64,000 nt of DNA from NCBI GenBank assembly GCA_002104905.1, contig MCFE01000033.1, forward strand, positions 150,923-214,922, read 5' to 3'. The DNA comes from Basidiobolus meristosporus CBS 931.73 (taxonomy: Eukaryota; Basidiobolomycota; Basidiobolomycetes; Basidiobolales; Basidiobolaceae). This document shows positions 4,328 through 64,000 of the stretch, in pieces. Made by a program: the position numbers and the translations under genes. The notes under the pieces are model-generated. The model saw only the letters and a program-made list of their open reading frames with translations, ran no database searches and was not told the DNA's origin. Every line of letters starts with the position of its first letter. Within the stretch, counting starts at the first letter, position 1.

Positions 4328-5206
4328 TCAGTCCATCTTCTCAGTGGCACCCAAGGTCTGTATATCTTTCACCGTGGCATAGCTGCGGTTATGGTACACG
4401 AGTGGAGCATCCCCAGCGTCCGAGGAGTTGTTTTCCACCTGAACCACTTCGCCCATCCAGACCTCATGATCACCCACGTTCAACACACGCTCCGTGGTGC
4501 AATGCAATGTAACGAGATTTCCGTTCAAAATTGGGTTCCCGTGGGGGCAGATACTGTGTGGGACCATTTCGAACGGATCCTTGGGAAGGTTTGGGGTGGA
4601 GAAGGCGCGGCTGCATCGGACTTGTTCGGTGCCAAGTATGTTGACCACGAACCTGTTGGACTCGTGGAGGGTCTTGGAGAAACGGGACGGTGGCTTGACG
4701 CAAAAGGAAATGATCGGTGGTTTCAACGAGACTGAGGTGAACGAGCTGAGGGTGATGCCGACTTTCTCCGAGGGGTTTTGCGGATGCGCCGTTGTAACTA
4801 CCACCACTACGGCGAGGTAAGAGGAGATCGGGGTTGGGTTAGGCCGGTGTCTTTCGGGAAGCGTGAAATAGGAATGGAAACTTGAGTTGAGCCTACCTGA
4901 AGATGCGAAATTGCGAAGAGCCAGACGAAGCTCTTGCGCTGTTGAATTGGTATCTAATAACAAGGGTTTCGGTTAATAGCCTGGTTTTGTAAAGTTTAGT
5001 ATCCATTACAAGCTGCTCTTGGCAAAGTTGAGGGGGTAGTGAGTCAACTTGCACATACCAGTGTTGGCATTCTGAAAACTGTTGGCAGCAGCCGTATGGA
5101 TCGGGTGACTCCTACAGGAAGGGCGAGGGTACAGTGAATTCAACCAGAACTTGTGTCGAGGTAGACACGGCCTAGAGAGGGCCACAACACGGGTGAAAAG
5201 CGGCAT
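4328..5206 (-). CDS. Mitochondrial flavin reductase-like protein (FMN-binding split barrel)
   Basis: 227-residue protein with a split-barrel flavin-binding domain of the DIM6/NtaB flavin reductase-like family. Exons on the minus strand: 5206-5059, 4953-4897 and 4806-4328, in frame. Exon 1 encodes an Arg/Ser-rich N-terminus without acidic residues (MPLFTRVVALSRPCLPRHKF), a good mitochondrial presequence. The domain starts at VVVVTTAHPQN, followed by GITLSSFTSVSLKPPIISFC, the usual FMN-contacting region, and RFVVNILGTEQ. Such proteins reduce or bind FMN; the substrate here cannot be told. The divergent neighbour is CNOT10, sharing about 250 bp of promoter. A longer unspliced reading is possible but contains an intron-like stretch and an upstream stop. 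Confidence 0.8.
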
Positions 5207-19341: not shown

Positions 19342-19426
19342 AACTCCCACACCTCCATTCGAATCATCAACCTACAAGCTCAACGCATTCTAACTTCCTA
19401 TTCCACATTTCTTTGTGAATATTGAA

Positions 19427-21104
19427 ATGTCTACCCACGAAGCCTCGGACCAAAAAGTCGAATCGGTCCCCGTCTCCTTGTTGCCCACCACTGTCCACGA
19501 CACTTACATTGAGGATGACTGTGAGAAAAAGCAGGAGGTAACCGAAGTGACTGAGGAAAAGAAGTCGCTTTACCAACGCTGCCGCATTTACATTCATATT
19601 GCCGCTGTATTGCTCTACACTGGCTACATGATTGCCGCGTGGATTCTCCATGGAAAGAAGACCCTTGTGGCCTCCTTGCTCTGGGCTTTTGTATGTCTTA
19701 AGATCATGTTCTACCACGTTCCTACCTCCATTGTCGCCAAGCCATTGGGCTGGTTCTTCTCTCAGCTGATCTCATTTGCCATGAGATTCTCGAGCCGAGT
19801 TCGCTGGATTGTATCTGTTGTCTTTACCGTCGGTCTGATTGTTGGTGTCACCCTGGGACTACCTGTGCATGAAGGCCAAGGAACCCTGGTTGACAGAGTG
19901 AGATCGTTAGCCGGCTTGTTCGTGTTTGTGCTAGTGCTCTTCGCGACCTCCACCGACCGCAAGCGGATTCGTTGGGCCACTGTACTCTCGGGACTTTTGA
20001 TCCAGTATCTTCTCGGTTTGTTCATCCTCAAGACCTCGGTTGGTTACGACATCTTCCACTGGATCTCGCACATGTGCACCACCCTCCTCGAGTTCTCCAA
20101 CACTGGCTTCGCTTTCATTGTTGGCGATAAGGTAGCCGCCATGGGAACGTTCGCTACTGGAGTTCTGCCAGCTGTCCTCTTCTTCGCTGCCATCGTGAAG
20201 GTCGTGTACTTCTTTGGAGGCATGCAGTGGATGGTGAAGAAGATCGCCTGGCTCATGGTCAGACTGATGAACACCAGTGGTGCCGAGTCCACCGTAGCCG
20301 CCGCCTCGCCCTTCGTTGGTATGGGTGAATCATCATTGCTGGTTCTTCCCTTCTTGGAAACCATGACCAAGTCAGAGATCCACTCCACCATGACATCAGG
20401 ATTTGCCACCATCTCCGGCTCAGTGCTGGTCGGATTCATTTCCATGGGAGTCAACCCACAACCACTCGTCACCTCATGTGTCATGTCAGTTCCATGTGGT
20501 ATGCTTATCTCCAAGATGCGCTATCCTGAGACTGGTGAGCCAGTGACCAAGGGCAAGGTTCGCATTCCACCCGCCCCCGAAGAGGAGTGTAACTTCTTGC
20601 ATGCAGCTGCTAACGGAGCTGCTCAAGGTATCCACTTGGTGCTGTTGATTGCTGCCACCGTTCTTGCCTTCATGTCACTCCTCGCCTTGGTGAACGCTTT
20701 CCTTCACCTGGTTTGGCAACTTCATCAACATCGATAACTTGACTCTTCAGTTGGTCATGGGATACATCTATGTGCCATTCATCTGGTTTGTTGGTGTCGC
20801 CCAGAAGGACGTGTTGACTGTGTCTCGCTTGATGGCCACCAAGACATTCGTCAATGAGTTCGTCGCCTTCGGTGAGCTCACCACCCCAGCTGTAGCTGAT
20901 GCATTGACTGCTCGCTCCAAGCATCTTGCGGTGTACTGCCTCTGTGGATTCGCCAACTTCGGATCGATTGGTATTCAGATCGGATCATTGGGATCCATGG
21001 CACCTTCCCGTAAACAAGATCTTGCCGAACTATCGTTCTCAGCCATGTTGTGTGGCACCATGTCAACCCTGATGAGTGCCAACATTGCGGGATTGCTGAT
21101 GTAA
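19427..21104 (+). pseudogene. Concentrative nucleoside transporter, copy 2 (one +1 frameshift)
   Basis: 558-residue CNT if the single extra base is ignored. ATG 19427 is used; the codon where copies 1, 5 and 6 have their first Met is GTG here, so translation probably starts four codons later. The extra C is at 20705 (CCTTCACCTGG versus CCTTACCTGG in copies 3 and 4), within the helix after LALVNAFL; reading resumes unchanged to the stop. HP1 reads GMGESSLL, and NEFVAF and CGFAN are intact. It is nearly identical to copies 3 and 4, marking a recent duplication. Confidence 0.85.
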
Positions 21105-22152
21105 ACCACGAATTTCTCCAGGTATCCTAACATGGATGAGCAACCAAAATTATGTGTGTATCTGTATATAGACCAGGAGTACCAGTGGTAAACTGTAAAT
21201 AGCCAGAGATTATCGAATAGTATATCATGTAGAGCCCTTCTTCTCATCACTGCCAAACTTACCCTAGATCTTTATATTTACGCGCAATGAATATCACTGT
21301 GACCAATATATTATTAAATTGATAGATACCCTACATGGTTTTCATTCATACGATTACTCATCAACTAAGTTGCAGACTGGCTTAATAGCCCCATTCCAGG
21401 GTTCGTGATAGCCTTTAAAACGGGTCGTGGGTATCTACAGTCCTCCCATAACAGAAATATCCCACTGAACCAAAATGCTTAAATATGCTGCATTAGGCAT
21501 GGTGTTGATCCAGCTTTAGTAAAGGTTCGAATGGATGTTGACCAATACACAATATTGGTATTTTCATAGCGGATCTCGACAGAATAATTGATCAACCACC
21601 GCAGCCTGCAGATGGCAACCTTTAAATGTTTGTACAATGCATATAGTGCCATAAATATGGACCAACACAAGTTTATCAGTACATTATATTGGCTGACGAT
21701 TTCCGTCTAACTAAATGGGCTAACAAATAAATGCAATAGTCGTGGTTTCGAAATCTTATCTTACCTAATATAATTTTGACAACAGTGGTGTTCAAGCCTA
21801 TGATGATCATTACTCAAATCATTTCGCGAGAATTCCTGGGTCCACTAAGCCATCGATCTGCAGAGCGCCACTCCTTCGCATTGGTAGATTCAAAGAAGGG
21901 GTCAATGATTTGATTGAATGATCGAACAAGCTATATCTGACCCCACGGAGTAATCCCACAATTAATGAAAATCAGGTGAGACACCTTCTTCCTGAATGGA
22001 TGGGTGACAATGGAAGGATATCTCATTCTCAGTAATCTCGACCGGAGTCCAGATGGATGAAATTACCATATTCGTTTTAGCGATTCCTGTAGGAACTCCA
22101 TGTGTTCCCAAGAATAAAGTTTAGCGTGTGCAGGGTAGCGTGCAACTTCACA
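21105..22152. other. Intergenic region CNT copies 2-3
   Basis: About 1 kb, A/T-rich. The last 250 bp are nearly identical to the promoters of copies 2 and 4. The first part is unique; no gene recognised. Confidence 0.65.
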
Positions 22153-22160
22153 TATAAAAG
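22153..22160 (+). promoter_or_regulatory. TATA box, CNT copy 3
   Basis: TATAAAAG in a promoter almost identical to copies 2 and 4. Confidence 0.8.
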
Positions 22161-22245
22161 AACTCCCACACCTCCATTTGAATCATCAACCTACAAGCTC
22201 AACGCATTCTAACTTCCTATTCCACATTTCTTTGTGAATATTGAA

Positions 22246-23923
22246 ATGTCTACCCACGAAGCCTCGGACCAAAAAGTCGAATCGGTCCCCGTCTCCTTGT
22301 TGCCCACCACTGTCCACGACACTTACATTGAGGATGACTGTGAGAAAAAGCAGGAGGTAACCGAAGTGACTGAGGAAAAGAAGTCGCTTTACCAACGCTG
22401 CCGCATTTACATTCATATTGCTGCTGTATTGCTCTACACTGGCTACATGATTGCCGCGTGGATTCTCCACGGAAAGAAGACCCTTGTGGCCTCCTTGCTC
22501 TGGGCTTTTGTGTGTCTGAAGATCATGTTCTACCACGTTCCTACCTCCATTGTCGCCAAGCCATTGGGCTGGTTCTTCTCTCAGCTGATCTCATTTGCCA
22601 TGAGATTCTCGAGCCGAGTTCGCTGGATTGTATCTGTTGTCTTTACCGTCGGTCTGATTGTTGGTGTCACCCTGGGACTACCCGTGCATGAAGGCCAAGG
22701 AACCCTGGTTGACAGAGTGAGATCGTTGGCCGGCTTGTTCGTGTTTGTGCTAGTGCTCTTCGCGACCTCCACCGACCGCAAGCGGATTCGTTGGGCCACT
22801 GTACTCTCGGGACTTTTGATCCAGTATCTTCTCGGTTTGTTCATCCTCAAGACCTCGGTTGGTTACGACATCTTCCACTGGATCTCGCACATGTGCACCA
22901 CCCTCCTCGAGTTCTCCAACACTGGCTTCGCTTTCATTGTTGGCGATAAGGTGGCCGCCATGGGAACGTTCGCTACTGGAGTTCTGCCAGCTGTCCTCTT
23001 CTTCGCTGCCATCGTGAAGGTCGTGTACTTCTTTGGAGGCATGCAGTGGATGGTGAAGAAGATCGCCTGGCTCATGGTCAGACTGAATGAACACCAGTGG
23101 TGCCGAGTCCACCGTAGCCGCCGCCTCGCCCTTCGTTGGTATGGGTGAATCATCATTGCTGGTTCTTCCCTTCTTGGAAACCATGACCAAGTCAGAGATC
23201 CACTCCACCATGACATCAGGATTTGCCACTATCTCCGGCTCAGTGCTGGTCGGATTCATTTCCATGGGAGTCAACCCACAACCACTCGTCACCTCATGTG
23301 TCATGTCCGTTCCATGCGGTATGCTTATCTCCAAGATGCGCTATCCTGAGACTGGCGAGCCAGTGACCAAGGGCAAGGTTCGCATTCCACCCGCCCCCGA
23401 AGAGGAGTGTAACTTCTTGCATGCAGCTGCTAACGGAGCTGCTCAAGGTATCCACTTGGTGCTGTTGATTGCTGCCACCGTTCTTGCCTTCATGTCACTC
23501 CTCGCCTTGGTGAACGCTTTCCTTACCTGGTTCGGCAACTTCATCAACATCGATAACTTGACTCTTCAGTTGGTCATGGGATACATCTATGTGCCATTCA
23601 TCTGGTTTGTTGGTGTCGCCCAGAAGGACGTGTTGACTGTGTCTCGCTTGATGGCCACCAAGACATTCGTCAACGAGTTCGTCGCCTTCGGTGAGCTCAC
23701 CACCCCAGCTGTAGCTGATGCATTGACCGCTCGCTCCAAGCATCTTGCGGTGTACTGCCTCTGTGGATTCGCCAACTTCGGATCGATCGGTATTCAGATC
23801 GGATCATTGGGATCCATGGCACCCTCCCGCAAACAAGATCTTGCCGAACTATCATTCTCGGCCATGTTGTGTGGCACCATGTCAACCTTGATGAGTGCTA
23901 ACATCGCCGGATTGTTGATGTAA
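22246..23923 (+). pseudogene. Concentrative nucleoside transporter, copy 3 (one +1 frameshift)
   Basis: 558-residue CNT if one extra base is ignored. The extra A is at 23086/23087 (GACTGAATGAAC versus GACTGATGAAC), just before HP1. The rest is open, and differences from copies 2 and 4 are mostly synonymous. HP1 is GMGESSLL (Met codon 23141-23143). The spacing to copy 2 is 2819 bp start to start. Confidence 0.85.
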
Positions 23924-24892
23924 GCTCTGACTCTCTAATTGTCGAGGTTTCTATCTATATCGACCGGAAAGAATGATGGAAATGGTGTCGATCTGTAAAT
24001 AGCCCTAGTTCTATATTCTTTATTCGGGGTATTTGTGAAGTATACTATATAGAGTACCTGTTCATATCTCTCTTTGCTTTGTTTCGTTTATGCCATAACT
24101 CAAAAATTAAACTGATTAGTAACATACCTACTGACTTGGTATTCGCCTCTGTTTCCCAGCAGCCAATAGTAGATCCGAGATCTTTCATCCAACCAAACTT
24201 ATTTCGATTTAATGGCCGATTTCGCAAACTGATAATCAAGCGATATGCCAATCGTGTAAATATGGTTTCGCAACATGCCCATACATTGTAGTTCCATGTC
24301 AATGATATCAATCAGACTAAGTAGACACGGACTTGTATGTGGTGTTGGTATGAAAATTATCCTGCTTGTAAATAGACAGACTCGGTTCAAAGCAAAAAAC
24401 ATCACTAAAGGAGGTTCATATAAATCCGATATATTGTTGCCGTCTGGCCAAATGCACCAAAGCCTGCGCCCATTCCTATCACTTTGTGCCATAGAAAGCT
24501 ACTAAATCCCATTTGTGGTAAGGCCAATGATGGTCGGTACTGAAATCATGTCACGAGAATTCCTGTTGCCACCAAGCCATGAAGCTACAAAACGCCACGC
24601 CCTCGCATTGGTGGATGGTTGGAAGTTGCCAATCTAGTTTCAGCAGTGGATTTGATTGAATGATCGAACAAGCTATATCTGACCCCAGGCAGTAATCCTA
24701 TATTTGATGAAACTCAGGTGACACGGAATTCTGGAATGGATGGGTAAGAATCGAAAGAAATCTTACTCGGAGTAATCTCGAACGGAGTCCAGATGGATGA
24801 AATTACCATATTCGTTTTAGCGGTTCCTGTGGGAACTCTATGTGTTCCCAAGAATAAAGTTTAGCGTGTGCAGGGTAGCGTGCAACTTCACA
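23924..24892. other. Intergenic region CNT copies 3-4
   Basis: About 970 bp. A central unique part is followed by the shared promoter block beginning about 24640. No credible gene; short ORFs lack codon structure. Confidence 0.65.
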
Positions 24893-24900
24893 TATAAAAG
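24893..24900 (+). promoter_or_regulatory. TATA box, CNT copy 4
   Basis: TATAAAAG, 86 nt before the copy 4 ATG, in the shared promoter block. Confidence 0.8.
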
Positions 24901-24985
24901 AACTCCCACACCTCCATTCGAATCATCAACCTACAAGCTCAACGCATTCTAACTTCCTATTCCACATTTCTTTGTGAATATTGAA

Positions 24986-26663
24986 ATGTCTACCCACGAA
25001 GTCTCGGACCAAAAAGTCGAATCGGTCCCCGTCTCCTTGTTGCCCACCACTGTCCACGACACTTACATCGAGGATGACTGTGAGAAAAAGCGGGAGGTAA
25101 CTGAAGTGACTGAGGAAAAGAAGTCGCTTTACCAACGCTGCCGCATTTACATTCATATTGCCGCTGTATTGCTCTACACTGGCTACATGATTGCCGCGTG
25201 GATTCTCCATGGAAAGAAGACCCTTGTGGCCTCCTTGCTCTGGGCTTTTGTGTGTCTTAAGATCATGTTCTACCACGTTCCTACCTCCATTGTCGCCAAG
25301 CCATTGGGCTGGTTCTTCTCTCAGCTGATCTCATTTGCCATGAGATTCTCGAGCCGAGTTCGCTGGATTGTATCTGTTGTCTTCACCGTCGGTCTGATTG
25401 TTGGTGTCACCCTGGGACTACCCGTGCATGAAGGCCAAGGAACCTTGGTTGACAGAGTGAGATCGTTAGCCGGCTTGTTCGTGTTTGTGCTAGTGCTCTT
25501 CGCGACCTCCACCGACCGCAAGCGGATTCGTTGGGCCACTGTACTCTCGGGACTTTTGATCCAGTATCTTCTTGGTTTGTTCATCCTCAAGACCTCGGTT
25601 GGTTACGACATCTTCCACTGGATCTCGCACATGTGCACCACCCTCCTCGAGTTCTCCAACACTGGCTTCGCTTTCATTGTTGGCGATAAGGTAGCCGCCA
25701 TGGGAACGTTCGCTACTGGAGTTCTGCCAGCTGTCCTCTTCTTCGCTGCCATCGTGAAGGTCGTGTACTTCTTTGGAGGCATGCAGTGGATGGTGAAGAA
25801 GATCGCCTGGCTCATGGTCAGACTGATGAACACCAGTGGTGCCGAGTCCACCGTAGCCGCCGCCTCGCCCTTCGTTGGTATGGGTGAATCATCATTGCTG
25901 GTTCTTCCCTTCTTGGAAACCATGACCAAGTCAGAGATCCACTCCACCATGACATCAGGATTTGCCACCATCTCCGGCTCAGTGCTGGTCGGATTCATTT
26001 CCATGGGAGTCAACCCACAACCACTCGTCACCTCATGTGTCATGTCAGTTCCATGTGGTATGCTTATCTCCAAGATGCGCTATCCTGAGACTGGTGAGCC
26101 GGTGACCAAGGGCAAGGTTCGCATTCCACCCGCCCCCGAAGAGGAGTGTAACTTCTTGCATGCAGCTGCTAACGGAGCTGCTCAAGGTATCCACTTGGTG
26201 CTGTTGATTGCTGCCACCGTTCTTGCCTTCATGTCACTCCTTGCCTTGGTGAACGCTTTCCTTACCTGGTTTGGCAACTTCATCAACATCGATAACTTGA
26301 CTCTTCAGTTGGTCATGGGATACATCTATGTGCCATTCATCTGGTTTGTTGGTGTCGCCCAGAAAGGACGTGTTGACTGTGTCTCGCTTGATGGCCACCA
26401 AGACATTCGTCAACGAGTTCGTCGCCTTCGGTGAGCTCACCACCCCAGCTGTAGCTGATGCATTGACCGCTCGCTCCAAGCATCTTGCGGTGTACTGCCT
26501 CTGTGGATTCGCCAACTTCGGATCGATTGGTATTCAGATCGGATCATTGGGATCCATGGCACCCTCCCGCAAACAAGATCTTGCCGAACTATCGTTCTCA
26601 GCCATGTTGTGTGGCACCATGTCAACCTTGATGAGTGCCAACATTGCGGGGTTGCTGATGTAA
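24986..26663 (+). pseudogene. Concentrative nucleoside transporter, copy 4 (one +1 frameshift)
   Basis: 558-residue CNT if one extra base is ignored. The extra A is in a short run at 26363-26365 (CAGAAAGGACG versus CAGAAGGACG), just before the SRLMATKTFVNEFVAF motif. Upstream the frame is open for about 460 codons, covering HP1 (GMGESSLL) and FATISGSVLVGF. Highly similar to copies 2 and 3. Confidence 0.85.
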
Positions 26664-28106
26664 ACTGTGCCTTTACTTGGAAAGCGCAAACATTGCTTCA
26701 CTAATCAGCCAGATAGAGCGATGGAAAGAGTGTACATAGCCAGAATTTATCCATCAACAAAAATTTCCCAGCAAAATAGTATATTTTATAGAAAAACGAT
26801 TTACAGCTTACCATATATACATATATATATACCCTGACCCATTATTTGCCACATATTTGAATTCCACTACCCCTTATACATAAATAAATTGTTTAGTACT
26901 CTACTTCTCTGCATTCTCGTTACGTCCATTATTCACCACAAGTAGGATGGCTACTAAACCCGCTATTTTAAAGCAGGAGTTTCATGTTTGCCCTCTTGTG
27001 GTTATCAGCGTTATCTTACAATAGATATGCCTCCTCAGCCAACAATTTCTTTAACTTTGATCAGGTCGTAAAGAAATTAAACCCTAGAAGATGAGCAATG
27101 TAGTTTGCTTCTACCTCATTGTGTAAGTAAATCAACACGTGAAGGTTTCAACCGAAGGCACCCACTTATTTTACGTCCTCTATATCTTTTCACAATGTCA
27201 AATTTTTTGGAATTAGTGAGCCTTTCACAGGACTGCGCAGAGCATACACACAAGTTCGTCTTGATGTCATTAAGGACCCAGCCAAGAATCAATTAACAAG
27301 TAGTGCATTCATCGTTACTGGATCCGCACCACAGTTACCAACATATCTGGGTTACCCCCACACGTTAAGGGTTTGCAATTTAGGCTAACTGATTCCGCCA
27401 GCTTAGGGCAAACGCGGTATTAAAAGACATCTAATGCCCCTTTATGTAGTCAACATGTCGGAAAAGATTTGTTTTTTATCGTTTCATATGGTAATACATT
27501 ACAAGAATCCCTGGCCTTAGGAATTTGTTTAGAGTATAGAAAAATCCAGCGGCCACTTGAGGCGAAGGTTGAACCCATGATTGATGGAGAATATTAATGC
27601 TTACGCCTTGAGCAAAAGCGTACTCCAGGTGGGTGCATTTGTCGTCTGATCTAATCTACTGACCAAATATCCGTAATCTTATCTTGCTCGATAGAATGCA
27701 GATATTGCCTGATGCAAAGTAACCAAGTATGCGGTAAGGCCAATGATAATCAATAATCAAATCATATCGCGAAAATATCTGTTATCACGACGTGTTGGAT
27801 TTGATAAAAAGTCCTCATTGGTGGGCTTAAGACAGTTGGTAACTTGACCTCGGCATCTAATCCACTCGAATCAACAAATTAAGTATATCTAACCTCATAC
27901 AGTCAATATGAATTTGGTAACTGACATTTGAGACAACAATTTACCAAAATGATCGTTGATAATTGGAAGAAATCCCCATTCAGATTAATCTCGACCGGAG
28001 TCCAGGTGCGAGAAATTCCCATATTCGTCCGGCTACTTCAAGTGGGAACTCCCTGTTTACCGAGGAAATAAAGTTAGGTGTGCGTGATGAAGCGTACATT
28101 AGCGAA
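26664..28106. other. Intergenic region CNT copies 4-5
   Basis: About 1.4 kb, A/T-rich. The promoter of copy 5 at its end retains diverged versions of the shared blocks (GGAGTCCAGGTG, ATATTCGTCCGG, AATAAAGTTAGGTGTG). An open frame before the ATG from about 27963 is promoter DNA, not coding. Confidence 0.6.
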
Positions 28107-28114
28107 TATAAAAG
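28107..28114 (+). promoter_or_regulatory. TATA box, CNT copy 5
   Basis: TATAAAAG, 74 nt before the copy 5 ATG. Confidence 0.8.
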
Positions 28115-28187
28115 AACTCCAAGGTCGCACCTTCAATCTTCAAACCACAGGCTCTGCGTACTCTACCGACCCAACCTTGCTTTCCGT

Positions 28188-29874
28188 ATGGAGATTGAAA
28201 TGACAGTTCGCGAAGACCCGGATCAAAAGGTTGAATCTGTTCCCGTCTCTTTGCTGCCTACCACTGTTCATGATACTTATATCGACGACGAATGCGAGAA
28301 AAAAAAGGCCAGCGAGGAACCTGTGGTTGAAAAAACATTGTATCAGCGCTACCGACTTTACCTTCATATTGCTGCTGTACTGCTCTACACTGGTTACATG
28401 ATTGCCGCATGGATTCTTCACGGAAAGAAGACCCTTGTGGCCTCCTTGCTCTGGGCCTTTGTTTGTCTGAAGATCATGTTCTACCATGTCCCTACCACCA
28501 TTCTCACGAAGCCATTGGGCTGGTTCTTCTCTCGGCTGATCTCATTTGCCATGAGATTCCCAAGTCGAGTTCGCTGGATTGTATCTGTTGCCTTCACTGT
28601 GGGTCTAATTGTTGGGGTCACTCTGGGATTACCTGTGCATAAGGGTCAAGGAACCCTAGTCGACAGAGTGAGGTCGTTGGCCGGCATGTGTGTGTTTGTG
28701 CTAGGGCTCTACGCTACCTCCACTGACCGCAAGCGGATTCGTTGGGCCACTGTGCTCGCTGGTATTTTGATCCAGTATCTTCTCGGTTTGTTCATCCTCA
28801 AGACCTCGGTTGGTTACGACATCTTCCACTGGATTTCCAATCTGTGTACGACACTCCTTGAATTCTCCAACACTGGCTTCGCTTTCATTGTTGGTGATAA
28901 GGTGGCTGCTATGGGAACATTCGCCACCTCAGTTTTACCAGCAGTCCTGTTCTTTGCCTCCATTGTGAAGATTGTGTACTATTTCGGAGGAATGCAATGG
29001 ATGGTCAAGAAGATCGCCTGGCTCATGGTCAGACTGATGAACACCAGTGGTGCCGAGTCCACCAGTAGCCGCTGCCTCCCCCTTCGTTGGTATGGGTGAA
29101 TCATCATTGCTGGTCCTTCCCTTCCTGGAATCCATGACCAAATCGGAGATTCATTCTACCATGACCTCGGGATTTGCCACTATCTCCGGATCAGTGTTGG
29201 TCGGATTCATTTCCATGGGAGTCCATCCGCAACCACTTGTCACCTCATGTGTCATGTCCGTCCCATGCGGTATGCTTATTGCTAAGATGCGCTACCCCGA
29301 AACTGGTGAGCCAGTGACCAAGGGCAAGGTTCGCATTCCACCCGCCCCCGAGGAGGAGTGTAACTTCTTGCATGCAGCATCCAACGGAGCTGCGCAAGGT
29401 ATCCACTTGGTGCTGTTGATTGCTGCCACCGTTCTTGCCTTCATGTCACTCCTCGCCTTGGTGAACGCTTTCCTTACCTGGTTTGGCAACTTTATCGATA
29501 TTGACCACCTGACTCTTCAGTTGGTCATGGGATACATCTATGTGCCATTCATCTGGTTTGTTGGTGTCGCCCAGAAGGACGTGTTGACTGTGTCTCGCTT
29601 GATGGCCACCAAGACATTCGTCAACGAGTTCGTCGCCTTCGGTGAACTTACCACCCCAGCCATCGCTGATTCCTTGACTGACCGCTCCAAGCATCTTGCG
29701 GTGTACTGCCTCTGTGGATTCGCCAACTTCGGATCGATTGGTATTCAGATCGGATCATTGGGTTCCATGGCGCCTTCCCGCAAACAAGATCTTGCCGAAC
29801 TATCGTTCTCAGCCATGTTGTGTGGCACCATGTCGACCTTAATGAGTGCCAACATTGCAGGAATGTTGATGTAG
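28188..29874 (+). pseudogene. Concentrative nucleoside transporter, copy 5 (one +1 frameshift)
   Basis: 561-residue CNT if one extra base is ignored. ATG 28188 begins MEIEMTVRED, retaining the first Met lost in copies 2-4. The extra A is at 29064 (TCCACCAGTAGCC versus TCCACCGTAGCC), a few codons before HP1. It is more diverged than copies 2-4, yet the segment carrying the indel is identical to them. HP1 is GMGESSLL (Met codon 29092-29094); NEFVAF and CGFAN are intact. Confidence 0.85.
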
Positions 29875-30446
29875 ACGAACGGCCATAAGAAATGCAATCA
29901 TCGCAGGCATTGCTGTATAATTCGAGCAGAAAGAACGATGGATATAGTGTAGATCTGTAAATAGCTGAATTTAATATCATGAACAATAGATTCCAACATA
30001 TTCTATATGGAACGCCCGCTTATTCCTCACCTTTACATGGCTCTGTTTCGTATATGTCAGGAATTTCACTACAATTGATACATAATTAAATCGATTAGTA
30101 CTGTACGTCGCGCCTTCAGTTACCAATCGAGCATCATCTTATCTGTATCCTGGAGATATCCTGGTATCGTGCTTGATGTCTACCTATATGTCAAGTCCGA
30201 TAGTTGCCTAGCATCAAATCATTGCGCTTGGATACGAGTGGTAACAAATCACAAAGCGCACCTTCTCTCAAACATCCGAACCGCACTGATATGGCAAATC
30301 TAAATATACATAAATGTCTGTAATATGATTTTTTTGCTAGTCCAGATGCTCTATGTTACCATTTATTGCCACCAAGTTCCGATCAGAATTCCGCTGGAGC
30401 TACCAAAATAAAATTAAGCGTGTGTTGAGTAACGTACGCTCGAAAC
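29875..30446. other. Intergenic region CNT copies 5-6
   Basis: About 570 bp; 3' UTR of copy 5 and promoter of copy 6, with a diverged AATAAAATTAAGCGTGTG block before the TATA box. No gene. Confidence 0.6.
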
Positions 30447-30454
30447 TATAAAAG
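30447..30454 (+). promoter_or_regulatory. TATA box, CNT copy 6
   Basis: TATAAAAG, 74 nt before the copy 6 ATG. Confidence 0.8.
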
Positions 30455-30527
30455 GGCATCAAGTGGTGTAGCTCCTTAAGCAGATCACAAACTCCACTCT
30501 TTTTACCCTAAACGTTATAACATTCCC

Positions 30528-32210
30528 ATGGATTTAGAAATGTCAACTCGGGAAAACCAGGATCAGAAGGTTGAATCCGTTCCTGCTTCTCTATTGCCTA
30601 CCAACGTCCATGAAACCTTTGTTGAAGACGAGTCGGAGAAGAAAAAGAGTTCGGAGCAAGTGGTGAAGCCTACACTGTATCAGCGCTACCGACTTTACAT
30701 TCACATTGCTGCTGTGCTTCTCTACACCGGTTATATTATTGCCGCATGGATTCTCCACGGCAGACAGAGTCTCGTGGCCTCCTTGCTCTGGGCATTTGTT
30801 TGCCTTAAGATCATGTTTTACCATGTCCCTACTACCATTCTCACAACACCATTGGGCTGGTTCTTCACCTTCTGGATCGACTTTGCCATGAAATTCTCGC
30901 TGAGGGTGCGCTGGATAGTCTCCCTTGTTTTCACTGTGGCCTTGATTGTTGGTGTGACATTGGGATTGCCAGTGGATGAGAGCAAAGGTACCCTAGCTCA
31001 AAGAGGTCGATCATTAGGCGGCTTGTGCGTTTTCATTATCGTACTCTATGTCACATCGAAGGATCGCAAAAAGATTCGTTGGGCCACTGTCATTGTTGGA
31101 GTCCTTATGCAATATCTTCTTGGCCTGTTCATCCTCAAGACTTCTGTCGGTTATGACATCTTCAACTGGTTGTCACATCTGTGTACCACACTCCTTGATT
31201 TCTCCAACACTGGTATGGCGTTCATCGTTGGTGACAAGGTGGCCAATTCAGGATCATTCGCCACCGCAGTTTTACCAGCAGTTCTATTCTTCGCTTCTAT
31301 CGTCAAGATTGTTTACTTTCTTGGAGGTATGCAATGGATTGTCAGTAAGATTGCCTGGTTCATGGTTAGAGTAATGAGTACCAGCGGTGCTGAATCCACT
31401 GTTGCTGCGGCTTCGCCTTTTGTTGGTCAGGGAGAATCGTCATTACTGGTACTTCCATTCTTGGAAACCATGACCAAATCGGAGATTCATTCTACCATGA
31501 CATCTGGCTTTGCCACCATTTCTGGATCAGTATTGGTTGGATTCATCTCCATGGGTGCCGACCCGCAGACACTCATTACCTCATGTGTCATGTCAACTCC
31601 ATGCGGTTTAGCCATCTCTAAGATGCGTATTCCTGAGACTGGGGAGCCAGTTACAAAAGGAAAGGTTCATATTCCACAAACAGAGGAGAAGGAATCTAAT
31701 TTCCTACACGCTGCGGCCAACGGTGCCGCTCAAGGTATTCATCTGGCGCTTTTGATTGCGGCCACCGTTCTTGCCTTCATGTCGCTGCTAGCCTTGGTGA
31801 ACGCATTCCTTACCTGGTTTGGCCGCTTTATTAACATCGAGCAGTTAACCCTTCAGTTGATCATGGGATACATCTATGTTCCATTCATCTGGTTTGTTGG
31901 TATTCCCCAAGAAAATGTGTTGACTGTTTCTCGCTTGATGGCCACCAAGACATTCGTCAACGAGTTCGTCGCCTTCGGTGAGCTCACCACCCCAGCCATT
32001 GCCGACGTATTACTCCCTCGCTCCAAGCATCTTGCGGTGTACTGTCTCTGTGGATTCGCCAACTTCGGATCAATCGGTATTCAAATCGGAGCATTGGGAT
32101 CGATGGCCCCTTCACGTAGACAGGATCTTGCCGAACTGGCGTTCTCGGCCATGTTGTGCGGTACCATGTCGACCTTGATGAGCGCTACCATCGCTGGTAT
32201 GCTAATGTAG
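30528..32210 (+). CDS. Concentrative nucleoside transporter, copy 6 (intact)
   Basis: Intact 560-residue CNT. Hydrophilic N-terminus (residues 1-55), then helices from IHIAAVLLYTGYIIAAWIL onward. HP1 is PFVGQGESSLLVLPF with Gln301 and Glu303, the canonical nucleobase contacts of the family. MTSGFATISGSVLVGF, ATKTFVNEFVAFGEL and CGFANFGS carry the ribose-contacting Glu, Phe, Asn and Ser. No intron. It is clearly diverged from copies 1-5 in the N-terminal third and at synonymous sites. Expected function is Na+- or H+-coupled nucleoside uptake at the plasma membrane; specificity is unknown. Confidence 0.95.
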   Translation: MDLEMSTRENQDQKVESVPASLLPTNVHETFVEDESEKKKSSEQVVKPTLYQRYRLYIHIAAVLLYTGYIIAAWILHGRQSLVASLLWAFVCLKIMFYHVPTTILTTPLGWFFTFWIDFAMKFSLRVRWIVSLVFTVALIVGVTLGLPVDESKGTLAQRGRSLGGLCVFIIVLYVTSKDRKKIRWATVIVGVLMQYLLGLFILKTSVGYDIFNWLSHLCTTLLDFSNTGMAFIVGDKVANSGSFATAVLPAVLFFASIVKIVYFLGGMQWIVSKIAWFMVRVMSTSGAESTVAAASPFVGQGESSLLVLPFLETMTKSEIHSTMTSGFATISGSVLVGFISMGADPQTLITSCVMSTPCGLAISKMRIPETGEPVTKGKVHIPQTEEKESNFLHAAANGAAQGIHLALLIAATVLAFMSLLALVNAFLTWFGRFINIEQLTLQLIMGYIYVPFIWFVGIPQENVLTVSRLMATKTFVNEFVAFGELTTPAIADVLLPRSKHLAVYCLCGFANFGSIGIQIGALGSMAPSRRQDLAELAFSAMLCGTMSTLMSATIAGMLM

Positions 32211-32800
32211 GCTACGGTTTTCTTGAAGATCTGTATATAGTATCAAATCATCAATATCTTTAAATCAAATTTTAATTATCCAACGGTAGTTTTAATAATT
32301 ATGTTACATACACCTTAATATTAACACCTGTACATATCACCAGTAAATATAACCACTCATTCATTTCACATTTACATTTCCGTATCTGTTTTGTCACTTT
32401 TTCTGATTCGGATTCATTTTGTTTTTTGGTTTCCATTTCTAAAAATATCCTAGTGCCTGAAGGAGATACTGATTTTCGGATAACACTGAAAATCCGAATA
32501 TCCGCACAAATCCTTGCGGTTTTCCCAATTTTTTTCCACTGCAATCGACAATCGCCAATCTAGAAAGAATTCGTGGAATTCAGGTGACAGCCAGATATGG
32601 TAATAACAGCTTTCTGGAATGGCTCGCATACCAAATCAGGGATATTTCCAGGGTTCAATTTAGGGATTGCCAAAAATGTTGCAATAATTATATTATGGTT
32701 TGTGGTTGGTGTGGTGCTAGGACATATGATTTTCGCTGCAGCAGAATCAAAATTTACATTGTACAACGAGATTCATCGGAATGCTATAGATGAGGACAGC
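32211..32800. other. Convergent gap between CNT copies 6 and 7
   Basis: 590 bp between the two stop codons, very A/T-rich. Small ORFs here look random. No repeat or terminator-like hairpin is obvious. Confidence 0.6.
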
Positions 32801-34468
32801 CTACATTAGCATACCAGCGATGGTGGCGCTCATCAAGGTCGACATGGTACCGCACAACATGGCCGAGAACGCCAGTTCGGCAAGATCCTGTCTACGTGAA
32901 GGGGCCATCGATCCCAATGCTCCGATTTGAATACCGATTGATCCGAAGTTGGCGAATCCGCAGAGACAGTACACTGCCAAGGACTGAGTACGTGGAAGCA
33001 ATTTGGCAACCATTTCTTTGCTGGTCAGTGTTCCAAAGGCCACAAACTCGTTCACAAACATCTTGGTAGCCATCAGACGAGCTACATCCACGCAATCGCG
33101 CTGAGGAATGCCAACAAGCCAGATGAATGGAACAAAAATATATCCCATAATCAACTGCAGGGTCAAGTTGTCAATGTTGATAAAGTTCCCGAACCAAGTG
33201 AGCAGAGCGTTCACCAAAGCAAGAAGTGACATGAATGCAAGCACCGTAGCTCCGATCAAAAGTGCCAAGTGGATACCCTGGGCCGCACCGTTGGCAGCAG
33301 CGTGTAGGAAATTGGCTTCCTTGTCCTCAGAAGGTGGGATACGCACTTTTCCTTTTGTAACTGGCTCTCCAGTCTCGGGGATACGCATCTTCGAGATGGC
33401 TAAACCGCAAGGGGTTGACATGACACAGGAGGTAATGAGAGACTGGGAATCAACGCCCATGGAGATGAATCCAACCAACACTGATCCAGAAATGGTGGCA
33501 AAACCGGACACCATTGTTGAGTGAATCTCGGCCTTTGTCATGGTTTCTAAGAACGGTAGAACCAGTAATGCCGATTCACCTTGGCCAACGAAGGGAGAAG
33601 CAGCGGCAACAGTGGATTCCGCTCCGCTGGTGCCCATAACTCTGACCATGAACCAGGCTACCTTTCTCACCATCCATTGCATACCTCCAAAGAAGTACAC
33701 GATCTTCACGATAGCCGCAAAGAAGAGCACAGCTGGAAGAACAGTGGTAGCGAATACCTTGGTGTTTGCAACATCGTCGCCAGCAATGAAGGCCAAACCG
33801 TTGTTCGAGAACTCGAGAAGAGTCGAGCACAAGTCAGATAACCAATGGAAAATATCGTAGCCAACCGATGTCTTGAGGATAAACAAGCCCAAGATGAACT
33901 GCATCAAGATGCCTACAATGACGGTGGCCCAGCGGATCTTCTTACGGTTGGACGAGGTTGCATATAGCACGAGAAGGAATACACATAGACCGCAAAGCGA
34001 TCTGACTCTGTCAACAAGGCTGCTGTGACCTTCTTTCACAGGAAGCCCGAGCGTCACACCGGCAATGAGGCCAACGGTGAAAATGATCGCGCTGATCCAG
34101 CGAACTTTACTAGGGAATCTCATGGCAAATCTAATCAAGGTCGAAAAGAACCAGCCCAAAGGCTTGGTAAGGATGGTGGTGGGCACGTGGTAGAACATAA
34201 TCTTTAACGAAACAAATGCCCAGATCAGCGACATGACAAGGGTGTCACGTCCATGAAGAATCCATGCGGCGATCATATATCCAGTATACAATACCACCGC
34301 AGCGATATGGAAGTAGAGACGATAGCGTTGATAAAGTGATCCCTTTTCCTCGGGCTTTTCGGGTTGCTTCTTTTCATCTTCATCAATGTAAGAGTCATTT
34401 GCAGTGGTAGGCAAGAAAGAGACCGGGACTGACTCCGTTTGCGCGTTTTGAGCTTCGTGGACAGACAT
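32801..34468 (-). CDS. Concentrative nucleoside transporter, copy 7 (intact, inverted)
   Basis: Intact 555-residue CNT on the minus strand, tail to tail with copy 6. It starts MSVHEAQN, at the second Met position of its paralogues. HP1 is PFVGQGESALLVLPF (Gln codon at 33581-33583 on the + strand), so it keeps canonical Gln and Glu. The family motif appears as ATKMFVNEFVAFGTL and CGFANFGSIGIQIG is present. It is the most diverged of the seven and is probably, with copy 6, closest to the ancestral transporter. Confidence 0.95.
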   Translation of the reverse strand: MSVHEAQNAQTESVPVSFLPTTANDSYIDEDEKKQPEKPEEKGSLYQRYRLYFHIAAVVLYTGYMIAAWILHGRDTLVMSLIWAFVSLKIMFYHVPTTILTKPLGWFFSTLIRFAMRFPSKVRWISAIIFTVGLIAGVTLGLPVKEGHSSLVDRVRSLCGLCVFLLVLYATSSNRKKIRWATVIVGILMQFILGLFILKTSVGYDIFHWLSDLCSTLLEFSNNGLAFIAGDDVANTKVFATTVLPAVLFFAAIVKIVYFFGGMQWMVRKVAWFMVRVMGTSGAESTVAAASPFVGQGESALLVLPFLETMTKAEIHSTMVSGFATISGSVLVGFISMGVDSQSLITSCVMSTPCGLAISKMRIPETGEPVTKGKVRIPPSEDKEANFLHAAANGAAQGIHLALLIGATVLAFMSLLALVNALLTWFGNFINIDNLTLQLIMGYIFVPFIWLVGIPQRDCVDVARLMATKMFVNEFVAFGTLTSKEMVAKLLPRTQSLAVYCLCGFANFGSIGIQIGALGSMAPSRRQDLAELAFSAMLCGTMSTLMSATIAGMLM

Positions 34469-59551: not shown

Positions 59552-60340
59552 ACGCAATGATAGCCAACAAAGGAGGTACCCAAGACCCTACAAAGGCAAT
59601 AGCCACCTGTTTTGCAACTACTGCAAAAGGAAAGGACACACATCAGACCAGTGTGTCAAAAAGAGATATTATCAGCAAAAGAAGCCTGAATATGGAAATG
59701 CTGCAACAACTGAAGATAGACTACTCATATCTGCATTAAGTATGACCACAAGCTAGGATTCTTAGATGTGGTATATTGACTCTGGAGCTTCTCAACACTT
59801 TACACACCAAAAAGGACTTTTTACCCAATATCAAGAAGTTCCAATTAAGAAGGTTTTCATGGGTGACAATAGAACACATGATCCAGTGGGAGAAGGAACT
59901 ATCAAAGTAAACCTTAGAAGCAGTGAAGGAAGCCATACACTGACCTTTAAAGAAGTACTCTATGTACCAGAAATAGCCAAGAACCTACTCTCTGTAACCA
60001 AGGCCACAGCAGAAGGACTCAGTTTCAGTTTTGGCAATTCTGGATGCAGGCTCACTGATCAAAATGGTGCCCATATTGCTTTGGGCATCAGAGATCAGAA
60101 TCTATACAAGCTGACTTCTAATCCATCATATCTGGAAGCCAATAAAAGTAACTTAAACATAGAAATACCAATGCTTTGGCACAGGAGATTTGGGCACATC
60201 AATTTTGAATATTTGCGCAAAATGATCAAAGATCAGCTAATTTCTGGTGTGAAAATTGATCCACTAGCTAATTTGGAGCACTGTGAAGCCTGCATACAAG
60301 GGAAACAAGCCAGACAACCGTTCAAGAGCCCAGGGTTAAT
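59552..60340 (+). pseudogene. Older copia element, segment 3 (gag end, protease, pre-integrase), truncated
   Basis: Continues the older element: zinc knuckle CNYCKRKGHTSDQC, then two premature TAG codons where the complete copy has AAG and CAG (about 59755 and 59764), protease WYIDSGASQHFT, LWHRRFGHIN and CEACIQGKQARQPF. It breaks off at about 60340, after GGGTTAAT, where telomere-like CTTAGGG starts. Integrase, RT, RNase H and 3' LTR are absent. Confidence 0.9.
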
Positions 60341-60640
60341 CTTAGGGTTATGGGAGGGAAAGTCATCAAGGTAGGTGAAAACTGTATTTGATTTCAGACA
60401 AGTCTAACTACAAATAAAGAAGCCAGCTGGGAATAGAAGATTCCCAAAGTAAACACTAAGTTGAATATGAATAAATCTAAGCTAAAGTTAAGGCAGTATC
60501 CCAGAGTACACTGGAGTTCAGGTTCATGGGAGAGTGAAGTAGATAAGCTTGAGAGATATAATAATCTTTGAGGAAGTGGGTAACAGCAGGTGAAGGGGAG
60601 TTTTTGATAAGTGAAGTGAATCTTGAGAGCAGAGATGCCT
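60341..60640 (-). mobile_element. Telomeric LINE segment C (3' end only)
   Basis: 300-bp 3' fragment of a non-LTR element on the minus strand. At its 3' end (low coordinates) it has the shared 3'-UTR blocks GGCTTCTTTATTTGTA and TTTCACC, a hairpin, TTTCCCTCCC and then TAACCCTAAG. No recognisable coding part. Confidence 0.75.
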
Positions 60641-60662
60641 CTTAGGGTAGGGGGGGAGACAG

Positions 60663-60676
60663 TCACCAACAGGTGA
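60663..60676. other. LINE 3' hairpin, segment B
   Basis: TCACC-AACA-GGTGA stem-loop (read on +), about 20 nt from the telomere-like tail. Confidence 0.7.
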
Positions 60677-60710
60677 AATCTTTATTTCAGTTGAAACAAA
60701 GTAGCCAGCG

Positions 60711-63080
60711 CTACTGTTGTAGCTTTGATACAAGAGTGTGTAGCTGAGGGGAATTTGTAGGTAAGTTAATAAGAAGTGATGATAGTTCTTCAGTGCTCAA
60801 GACACTGTTCAGTGGGAAGGGGGGTAGCAAGAGAGGTAAGAATGACTTGTGAACAACATTAATGAGGGGAATGTGATAAGGATTGATATTCATCATAAAG
60901 GGAGTGTGCTGCTGCAGATATTGCTGCCAAAGGACTGTCAAGTACTTCAGGTAGGACAGCTTGGGTTTTTCTGACTGCAGAATATATTGAGCAAACTTCT
61001 TGACTTCAGGATCTCCAAGTATAGTTCTCCAGCAGGAGCCAGGTGTAGTGTGATGTGTTCTCTTCCAGGCCTTAATCAGTGGGTTGTTGCAGTGGTGAAG
61101 TCTGAGATATAATCTGGTTCTAAGGTAGAGAAGTCTGATCTTATAGGGCATAAACCCAAAAGCACCAAGAATAGCATGTCTGTAGGGGCATTCAGGCAAA
61201 TGAGGCACCAAGGAGGTAATGCACCATACTGCAAACTTGTCAAGCTTAGTGCAGTCTCTAGAAGTAAGAGAGAGAAGTGGTAAGCCAAACTCCAGGACAG
61301 GGAAGACAAACTGCTTGAGTAGAAGGAGGCAGCTGGGAGCTGAAGTTGTTGGAGGAGCAACAGCCAGTAGCTTGTGGAGTGCCTGTCTTGCCAGGATAAT
61401 TCTCTTCTTCAGGTGTGCTCCAGAGTCTAGTCCAGTAGGAAGGAAAGGAAAGCCAAGATATGTAGCAGAAGCCTGAGCAGGTAGAGTGGAGTTCTCCAAG
61501 TTGATGGGAGAGCCCAAAGGTACTGTCTTTGCAATGGAAAGCTGAAGATTATTCTTCTGCAGATACTGGTGGATGGTCTGGGAGTCTTGTTGCACATTGG
61601 AGGAGGATATTCTGATGTCATCAGCAAAGAGACTAACCAGGCAGTCAGCTGAGAGTCTTGGGAAATCATTCAGGAAGATGGCAAACAGTATAGGACCAAG
61701 CACAGAGCCTTGAACCACTCCATTAGGAACTGAGAACACAGCTGATTGCTCACTTGGGTGCAGAATTCTTGCTTGTGGATCCAGAAACAGAGACCTGACA
61801 AGGAGGGTGAGAGAGGTACTGGAGAAGCATTGCAACTTGGACCAAAGCAGATTTCTGTCAACTGAATCAAAGGCCTTAGTAATATCAAACAGAACTGAGG
61901 GATACTTGCACTGGAGAGAGTGATCTTGGCCAAGTATGACTGCATATTCCAAGGAGAGGCCAGGAACAAAGCCAAACTGTGCAGGATGAAACTTGAGGGA
62001 GTCAGAGTAGAGCTCCTGAGCAAGCAGAAGCTCAAACACCTTTCTGCAGGTGGGCAGCAGAGATATTGGCCTGTAGGAGCTAGGATCCAGGTGCTTTCCT
62101 TTACCCTTGTACAGTGGCAAAACATTTGCAAAGGACCATTCCTCAGGAGTAGAAAGCTGGGCTGAGCATTGCTGAAACAGTGGAAGCAGAAGTGCAGACA
62201 TGGCCTTGGTACTAGTCTTCAGAAGCTCATAGGAGATTGTGTCCACACCTGGAGCAGTAGAGTTGGGAAGCCTCTTGAGCACATTATGGATTCTCCTTTG
62301 ATCAAGTGCAAGTGGGATGGGCAGAGTTGTGAAGTCAGGATGAAAGCCAGGAGTTCAGTACTGCTTTGTAGAGAAGAAGATGTTAGCCAGCTGTTCTGTT
62401 GAAGGTAACTTCCTGGAAGAGGGCCTCATTGCCCTGTAGAGTCTTAATACTGTTCTTGTTATAGAGTTGGAAGATTGCAGAGGCAAAGAACTCATAATAT
62501 GATCCCAGAGCTGAGTATGCAGAGTGTGGTGAATTGCCTTGGAGTGGTGTATGGCTGTCAGGAGGAGTTTCTCTGTTTTTGGGTTAGGGAAACTCAGGTA
62601 GCTTTGTTGCAGGGCTGAAACAATGAATTCCCATTTTCTTGATATAACAGCAGTAGTCTTGCATGGCAGTGAGAGGGAGGCAGACACCAGAATCAGATGC
62701 TTCACAAAGAGCCAGGCATAGTTGAGATCATCTGGCAGAGAAAGTAGCAAACAGGCAAGCTTCAAGTAGTTCCCAAAGTCTTTCTTCTGATTCTTGGTAG
62801 CTTTGTGGGTGAGCACAGTAAGTTTTGGCAGCTTCTTCTTCACAACTGGTTGCATAGAAAGGGACCAGGCTGGGTGGTCAGAGGCTCTCAAGGATCCTAG
62901 CTCAGCTCCAGAGAATTGCTTGACTTCATTCACAAAGTAGAGGGCAGCAGCAGAAGGACAGATCCAGTCAACACATCTTTTCTCAGATTGAGCACCTAGT
63001 GCTAGCAGGTGGCTTTCTCTCAGGAAGTTCAGTAGGAATGTAGACCTTGGCTTCATTCTTGCAGTCAGAGTAGTCTTGTT
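60711..63080 (-). pseudogene. LINE ORF: APE endonuclease end plus reverse transcriptase, one in-frame TGA
   Basis: One reading frame from the left-over endonuclease to the stop at 60711, broken only by TGA at 62355-62357. The first part retains the C-terminus of an AP-endonuclease domain (RCVDWICPSA...ASDHPAWSL; the SDH motif), so this is an APE-type LINE. Then come the RT blocks APGVDTISYELLK, LYKGKGKHLDPSSYRPISLLP, DITKAFDSVDRNLLW, NGVVQGSVLGPILF and the active site SLFADDIRI. The C-terminal region includes PVLEFGLPLLSLTSR and GAFGFMPYKIRLLYLR. The N-terminal ORF extension from 63167 is translated segment A 3' UTR. The family name cannot be assigned by eye. Confidence 0.85.
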
Positions 63081-63766
63081 CTTAGGGGTTAGGGGAGGGA
63101 AAGTCACCAAGTTGGTGAAATCTTTATTTGAGTTAAGACCTAATCTAGGTACAAATAAAGAAGCCAATTAAGAGGTCTAGAACCTCTCTAATAAATAATC
63201 TAATTTATGTTTTGTTTCATCTCTAATGTTTGTTTCAATAAAGTAAAGCTCATCAGGGGTAAATATAAAATTCAGGGGTTTTGGGGGAAGTACAAATTGT
63301 AGATGTTTCTGATCAATATAATCCAAGACTGGAACCCAGCCTGGGATTAGGTGTAGTAGGAAGGGTGTGTGGACTTGTAAGTAGCTCTGCCACATAGATC
63401 TTAGATGGTCCTGAGCCAGTAGTCTTGGTTTCTCAGCTTTTTGAAGTTTTGAAGCAAGCTCTGTTACTACAGCAGAGCCAACCAGGGTGTGCCAGCAAGA
63501 AGATTTCAGGGAGGAGTTAGATTGAAGCCATTGTTTGATGGAGGGGTTATGTGATTTCTGAAGTTTGACTAGGAAGGAAGCACAGAGATAGACCATTCGG
63601 ATTTGGTATGGGTAGAAGCCAAAGGCTCCATTAGTTGCATGGATATAGGGAGATACTGGAAGATAAGGTACCAAGGATCTGATACACTGATGGAGAAATT
63701 TATCCAGGCGGTGAAGTTCTCTGGAGGTTAGGGGTATAATGTGGAGACCAAACTCAAGTACCGGCA
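63081..63766 (-). mobile_element. Telomeric LINE segment A (5'-truncated, adjoining telomere)
   Basis: 686-bp copy whose 5' truncation abuts the terminal TTAGGG tract. The 3' end carries the hairpin at 63104-63118 and ends CCCTCCCCTAACCCCTAAG. Confidence 0.85.
63104..63118. other. LINE 3' hairpin, segment A
   Basis: TCACC-AAGTT-GGTGA perfect 5-bp stem, 5-nt loop, about 20 nt from the CCCTAAG end. Confidence 0.7.
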
Positions 63767-63767
63767 C
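63177..63767 (-). pseudogene. LINE reverse transcriptase C-terminal fragment
   Basis: About 196 codons open to a stop at 63177. PVLEFGLHIIPLTSRE, SLVPYLPVSPYIHATNGAFGFYPYQIRMVYL and KAEKPRLLAQDHLRSMWQSYLQVHTPF align with the end of the segment B ORF but differ at roughly half the positions, so A and B belong to distinct subfamilies. The catalytic RT part is lost. Confidence 0.85.
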
Positions 63768-64000
63768 TTAGGGTTAGGGTTAGGGTTAGGGTTAGGGTTA
63801 GGGTTAGGGTTAGGGTTAGGGTTAGGGTTAGGGTTAGGGTTAGGGTTAGGGTTAGGGTTAGGTAGGTTAGGGTTAGGGTTAGGGTTAGGGTTAGGGTTAG
63901 GGTTAGGGTTAGGGTTAGGGTTAGGGTTAGGGTTAGGGTTAGGGTTAGGGTTAGGGTTAGGGTTAGGGTTAGGGTTAGGGTTAGGGTTAGGGTTAGGTTA
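63767..64000 (+). repeat. Telomere, (TTAGGG)n
   Basis: Starts CTTAGGG and continues to the end of the window, about 38 units, with one variant (TTAGGTAGG, about 63859-63866). The G-rich strand runs toward the right end, so this is a true chromosome terminus. Confidence 0.98.

Follow-up and report, generated by a model that had tools for sequence, protein, structure and literature searches.

Stacked 5'-truncated non-LTR retroelements with a common 3' end at the chromosome ends of the telomerase-bearing fungus Basidiobolus meristosporus

We report the analysis of a group of retroelements found at the chromosome ends of the fungus Basidiobolus meristosporus CBS 931.73, starting from the last 64 kb (here called the window) of contig G000:C569 (positions 150923-214922), where window and contig end together at 214,922. 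The window closes with a head-to-tail array of truncated retroelements without long terminal repeats (non-LTR elements), and this array is real and forms part of a genome-wide pattern. At least five families with one 3' end can be told apart by sequence: two long interspersed nuclear elements (LINEs A and B), two families carrying only the first open reading frame (ORF1-only, C and D) and a tRNA-like short interspersed nuclear element (SINE S). We consider it probable that these are telomere-specific non-LTR elements, maintained by a cycle in which telomerase reseals chromosome ends and the element RNAs are copied from those ends. The assembly searched comprises 89,006,234 bp in 1311 contigs.

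Read from the inside outward, the array consists of a broken copia element, a C piece of 295 nt, a B piece of 2.4 kb, an A piece of 681 nt and TTAGGG repeats that run to the contig end. As the initial annotation of the window had described, the three non-LTR segments are 5'-truncated and all lie on the minus strand with their 3' ends inward. The copia fragment (59554..60341, plus strand) is 94.4% identical over 788 bp to another copia element in the window, which continues, and it is internal sequence laid bare by breakage of the chromosome end. Segment C (60348..60642, minus strand) is a 3' piece of family C, 97.6% identical to nt 1-295, counted from the 3' end, of the 1024-nt reference element L135, with altered bases in its hairpin region (60363-60388). 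Segment B (60644..63086, minus strand) is a broken member of family B that retains the 3' end, the reverse transcriptase (RT) and the end of the endonuclease, and is 98.6% identical to nt 5-2448 of 4131. Its copy of the 3' motif shared by the families lies at 60663-60686, its RT domain (RVT_1, Pfam E 1.9e-25, residues 67-279 of the ORF at 60711-62282) at 61446..62084 on the minus strand and, by motif alignment, the SDH motif of an apurinic endonuclease (APE)-type enzyme at 62870..62885, again on the minus strand. Segment A (63086..63766, minus strand), a 3' piece of LINE family A, is 99.3% identical to nt 2-682 of 4682 and carries the shared motif at 63104-63128.

The initial annotation had taken the three segments for pieces of one element, each truncation being fused to the next tail with nothing between. 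The pieces come instead from three different families, and one or two telomeric units, always following a C, stand at every joint: TTAGGGTTA between copia and C (60342..60350, after C at 60341), TTAGGGTAGGGGGGG between C and B (60642..60656, after C at 60641) and TTAGGGGTTAGGGG between B and A (63082..63095, after C at 63081), all on the plus strand. The terminal TTAGGG array (63768..64000, plus strand; Tandem Repeats Finder, 63768-63997, 38.8 copies) likewise follows a C, at 63767, which is foreign to element A, the copy at locus L069 having G there, and so C|TTAGGG is found at four of four boundaries of the array. Allowing at most one mismatch, TTAGGGTTAGGG matches the window 38 times against 0.35 expected.

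The same location and polarity recur across the genome. A 32-nt tag from the RT of family B, allowing up to three mismatches, has 361 copies, 340 forward and 21 reverse, in an assembly where most contigs, as written, have their telomere on the right (fourfold TTAGGG: 7428 forward against 81 reverse). Among the 100 copies listed, 99 could be placed on contigs of known length (contig C324 was left out); 29 of these lie on contigs shorter than 20 kb, which do not discriminate for location, and for each of the 70 on contigs of at least 50 kb the distance to a contig end is at most 16.7 kb (median 3.1 kb), the 5' side facing that end. The initial annotation had expected copies at contig ends with fixed polarity, and the copies placed include no dispersed internal one. 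For the ORF1-only families, 28 of 143 matches could be used, the other 115 being on short contigs or contigs of unknown length, and all 28, in this one polarity, lie within 9.2 kb of an end. The core 3' motif has 1646 matches in the genome and a reversed-pattern control has none; in 64 pieces read, no 3' motif in the opposite orientation was found. In two contigs such sequences lie near both ends: C424 (312,558 bp) has a D match at 1646 and an RT tag at 311029, and C523 (102,848 bp) an RT tag at 5200 and TTAGGG at 102637, so that both may be near-complete small chromosomes.

Contigs break at repeats, and any repeat might therefore appear terminal; the assembly is indeed in 1311 contigs, many of which end inside arrays. 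A control tag from copia, however, is present in 1328 copies, 641 forward and 687 reverse, and on long contigs of known length 3 of 14 copies lie within 20 kb of an end against about 27% expected, so that this repeat has neither place nor orientation bias. The polarity of the non-LTR elements is moreover fixed relative to the end, and TTAGGG tips adjoin them. We therefore reject an artefact of assembly breaks, to which we attach hardly any credence.

The boundaries between elements, and those between elements and terminal repeats, carry a record of how they were made. On 18 contigs of known length with listed TTAGGG arrays, 17 arrays begin 109-239 bp from the contig end and the eighteenth is internal, while at 20 further tips, mostly on contigs outside those gathered by element queries, TTAGGG begins 130-297 bp from the end. 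Thirteen of these 20 tips adjoin A, B, C or S, all in one polarity, three adjoin copia and four other sequence; TTAGGG is thus added to whatever end is exposed, and in this sample the exposed sequence is mostly one of these elements. At one of the four tips on other sequence (locus L144) a tRNA-Lys gene (84-156) is directly adjoined by TTAGGG, as after healing of a break there. The initial annotation had foreseen 3' ends joined to telomeric sequence, and this was borne out at inner joints. We collected 114 3' ends, among which family shares are biased because the loci were gathered by A or B queries; one had too little flank, and of the 113 remaining joints 98 have at least one TTAG unit, the remainder having mostly a G-run. 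Telomeric units number none at 15 joints, one at 62, two at 25 and three or more at 11.

Four joints could not be classed, and in the other 109 the tract starts with G before TTAGGG (49), TTAG (29), TTTAG (13), a G-run only (10), TAG (7) or otherwise (1). Of the 29 joints that start with TTAG, 25 have a C just before the tract (against 37% expected when A and C alone are considered, p 6e-8), and C precedes TTAGGG in 15 of the 20 tips, a share that is conditional since the search pattern demanded a base other than G before the array. Because C|TTAGGG prevails at both, inner joints and tips carry one healing mark, which suggests that telomerase would align C, CT or CTT to a template 5'-CCCUAAG-3'. 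A TERT gene is present on contig C880, where PF12009 (the TERT RNA-binding domain) scores above cut-off in two stretches, one with an in-frame TAG; with this and the TTAGGG tips, loss of telomerase is rejected.

Two other accounts of the joints have to be weighed. In the first, as for SART and TRAS, the endonuclease would nick long TTAGGG arrays into which the elements insert, the inner repeats later shrinking to one or two units. Were elements to insert at random sites of long tracts, many units should remain at the joints unless shrinkage had affected all of them, whereas 102 of the 113 joints have none to two units against about 18-50 at tips; we regard this account as unlikely, also in view of the endonuclease described below. 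The difference in length suggests either addition to nearly bare, just-healed ends or later shrinkage of inner tracts. In the second account the elements are passive subtelomeric repeats that insert rarely and spread by recombination or break-induced replication, their truncation reflecting erosion and telomerase healing. Truncation, healing and break-induced replication are documented for MoTeR (PMC7367193), the healing mark at the joints would fit, and the 5' end of full-length S, the commonest joint flank, recurs at several joints. Nevertheless, 106 distinct 14-nt flanks are found among the 113 joints, so that most joints must have arisen separately; this requires many separate additions, whereas copied arrays would share joints. 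Passive spread accordingly appears improbable to us, and the coding capacity of the elements, to which we now turn, also speaks against it.

The five distinguishable 3' ends have some 60 nt in common, with 42 columns of the alignment invariant, and finish in CCCCTAA; on the sense strand the common end reads GGCTTCTTT, then AAATAAAGATTTCACC-loop-GGTGA, then a C-run and CTAA. By family, the 100 sites listed of the 1646 motif matches comprise 46 B (and two probable B), 28 S, 12 C, six A and six D. Since the 3' end is common to all, we suggest that one kind of RT, that of A and B, may serve all five families. Family A is 4.7 kb long with an ORF1 of 556 and an ORF2 of 949 codons, both stop to stop, and in its copy at L072 both ORFs are open and the element is capped at once by TTAGGG at the contig end. 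Family B has an ORF1 of 429 and an ORF2 of 917 codons, taken from different copies. Families C and D, of about 1.0-1.1 kb, encode ORF1 only (242 and 266 residues), the D protein being homologous to the C-terminal portion of the ORF1 proteins of families A and B (E 6e-11 and 5e-18). LINE and ORF1-only kinds occur together in the arrays at L069 and L070.

Searching with D yielded 143 matches to the two families, and in 120 of them the aligned stretch is free of stops. The ratio of nonsynonymous to synonymous polymorphism (pN/pS) is 0.21-0.31 for D and 0.26-0.39 for C, with three copies each; it is given for pairs of open copies alone, since pooled ratios double-count overlapping loci and include broken copies. 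By these ratios the ORF1-only proteins are under selection, and open ORFs with a pN/pS of about 0.3 point to continuing retrotransposition rather than passive spread. Basidiobolus ranarum has a relative of D of nearly equal length (269 residues) and 60% identity. Of two other searches, one scored 7983 candidates, with 120 of 2485 listed, and one scored 7993. C and D have a repeated 5' leader (L135:898-1027 and L069:6130-6350): some 26 nt from near the 5' end appear a second time deeper in the element, a TATAAA-like sequence and a CCTAACCC stretch lying between the two occurrences. Such an arrangement may keep a promoter inside the element.

S (L072:1322-2380) is non-coding and about 528 bp long. 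At the 5' end it has tRNA-like A and B boxes, spaced by 32 nt, and with its LINE 3' end it looks like a telomeric SINE. Shuffling in two-base blocks gave an equally good match to the boxes in two of 2000 trials. The boxes are the basis for a tRNA origin of S, as ARAGORN reported no tRNA in L072, and against Rfam S gave one match, below the gathering score (E 0.14).

The RT of the LINEs has an RVT_1 domain for which the L1 ORF2 protein is the best match by sequence and by fold, R2 scoring lower than L1. In a tree that holds no labelled CRE or R1 rows, the seven RTs form an isolated clade. The initial annotation had recognised an APE-type endonuclease remnant and set the element apart from MoTeR on this ground. 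Both points are upheld: the N-terminal endonuclease of ORF2 has the APE fold, with the TRAS1 endonuclease among the best fold matches, and no C-terminal nuclease of the CRE type found in MoTeR (CCHC and RHD/N motifs) was seen in any of the seven proteins, two of which (P0002 and P0004) are partial. Membership of the CRE/MoTeR lineage is rejected on these features. Pfam found no endonuclease in family A alone nor in the window ORF at 62355-63167, a PDB search with the A1 profile gave no endonuclease chain by sequence, the match being by fold only, and NCBIfam gave only matches below cut-off, RT-like or due to chance. The position of the catalytic Glu is occupied by Asp, which tells against endonuclease-guided insertion of the SART/TRAS kind.

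In A and B, ORF2 lies in the frame of ORF1 beyond a single stop in the context TCTGCC-TGA-CTA (L072:8120-8122 for A, L070:6807-6809 for B), with no ATG upstream of the ORF2 endonuclease motifs. Across 30 such sites (27 B and three A, 26 of them distinct) TGA is present in all and CTA in all but L050, which has TTA; among the distinct sites TGA is kept in 26 and CTA in 25. UGA-CUA is a strong readthrough context, and ORF2 may be made by UGA readthrough from ORF1. The initial annotation had contained neither this stop nor the catalytic Asp, nor the multiple families, the ORF1-only members, the SINE and the common 3' end. The public Basidiobolus gene models P0001 and P0006 include pieces of B ORF2, and P0001 has several C-terminal pieces in a row, as expected from stacked truncated copies. 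Further inside the window, at 19415-34468, four clustered ORFs have nucleoside-transporter (CNT) domains, three on the plus strand and one on the minus strand.

In the cycle that we propose, telomerase would first reseal a broken or eroded end, giving the C|TTAGGG or G-seeded start. An element RNA would then pair, through its 3'-terminal C-run and CUAA, with the terminal TTAGGG and be copied by the RT of A or B, primed either by the 3' end of the chromosome itself or by a nick in the G-strand very close to it. Copying that starts at the G-strand's 3' end would place the element with its own 3' end inward. Incomplete copying or later erosion would leave a 5'-truncated tip, to be resealed by telomerase before the cycle repeats. 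The initial annotation had suggested that the element extends or caps ends together with telomerase, and the healing mark and the presence of TERT are in keeping with this; the joint role itself, and with it a benefit to the cell, we infer. Several points weigh against the proposed cycle. Seven of the 20 tips lie on copia or other sequence, so that telomerase alone can cap ends; 10 of the 109 classed joints have a G-run without a TTAG unit; inner joints could have so few units because longer tracts shrank afterwards; apart from Glu, the motifs of the endonuclease are conserved, a sign that the nuclease has some use; and contigs often stop inside arrays, so that full ends are visible for a part only. 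More tentatively, and with some doubt, we envisage a composite system in which telomerase seeds and caps the ends while cooperating APE-type LINEs, HeT-A-like ORF1-only elements and a SINE, all recognised through the common 3' end, would supply the bulk of terminal DNA, the endonuclease being reshaped by the Glu-to-Asp change for ends rather than for nicks in interior DNA and ORF2 made by UGA readthrough.

The elements described here combine end-confined copies of one polarity, an RT of LINE type without LTRs and a 3' end joined to telomeric sequence, the features of telomeric non-LTR elements as a functional class. In a published list of telomeric retroelements MoTeR1 stands as the fungal one (PMC10088271); FoTeR groups with MoTeR1, Cnl1 and CRE elements and has a restriction-like endonuclease (PMC12857005), and Cnl1 is nearest to MoTeR (PMC12810828). 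MoTeR1/2 of Magnaporthe oryzae, FoTeR of Fusarium oxysporum and Cnl1 of Cryptococcus neoformans resemble the present set as fungal non-LTR elements at ends beside telomerase-type repeats, with truncated copies, short inner tracts and healing from short seeds (PMC7367193, PMC12857005, PMC12810828); the exceptional MoTeR joints, moreover, have a terminal C in five of six cases (PMC7367193). Unlike MoTeR1 and FoTeR with their restriction-like endonuclease, the Basidiobolus LINEs have two ORFs and an N-terminal APE-type enzyme, and, in contrast to the CRE-type grouping published for MoTeR1, FoTeR and Cnl1, the set has no CRE-type zinc/RHD motif and has ORF1-only and SINE partners.

HeT-A, TART and TAHRE of Drosophila likewise form head-to-tail arrays in one direction, with Gag-only elements beside Gag and Pol (HeT-A has no RT), an APE-type endonuclease in the Pol of TART and TAHRE and proposed priming from the chromosome end (PMC5537684). 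The ORF1-only C and D elements represent the Gag-only arrangement of HeT-A. Basidiobolus, however, keeps telomerase repeats and TERT and has a SINE, and its elements end in a C-run and CTAA rather than the 3' oligo(A) of the Drosophila elements. SART and TRAS of Bombyx and Tribolium, members of the R1 clade, share the APE-type endonuclease and a telomere-only location with telomere repeats, and differ in their endonuclease-guided insertion inside the repeats (PMC5537684), as against the few-unit joints and Asp found here. Athena of rotifers, treated in the same source, is similar in end addition, short telomeric stretches at the 3' end and 5' truncation (PMC5537684). Athena is a Penelope-like element without endonuclease, and such an identity is rejected for the Basidiobolus elements, which have a LINE RT and an APE-type endonuclease. 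Coprina, of fungi, belongs beside Athena, and a literature search for Coprina found no paper. GilM and GilT of Giardia, Zepp of Chlorella and Tx1-1_ACar of Anolis are further telomeric non-LTR elements (PMC10088271); they come from other hosts, and GilM and GilT belong to the CRE clade by RT (PMC10088271). The Basidiobolus system works like HeT-A/TART and like the arrays of MoTeR, and the features tested place it in neither group. Our searches of open-licence PMC papers brought up no account of telomeric elements in Basidiobolus or of an APE-type telomeric LINE in any fungus. The annotation's reading is supported for location, polarity and type of enzyme, and its word "undescribed" holds for that literature.

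The fungal telomeric LINEs found in print group with CRE-type elements. An early-diverging fungus whose telomere-only elements carry an APE-type endonuclease would imply that fungi invented telomere targeting more than once. The ORF1-only and SINE partners would allow a division of labour of the Drosophila type to be studied in a cell that has telomerase, and, if the composite system is real, it would be an independent fungal counterpart of that of Drosophila with telomerase kept. From the many joints recorded one can read how ends broke, were healed and received elements, and the sharing of an end between retroelements and telomerase is thereby opened to direct test.

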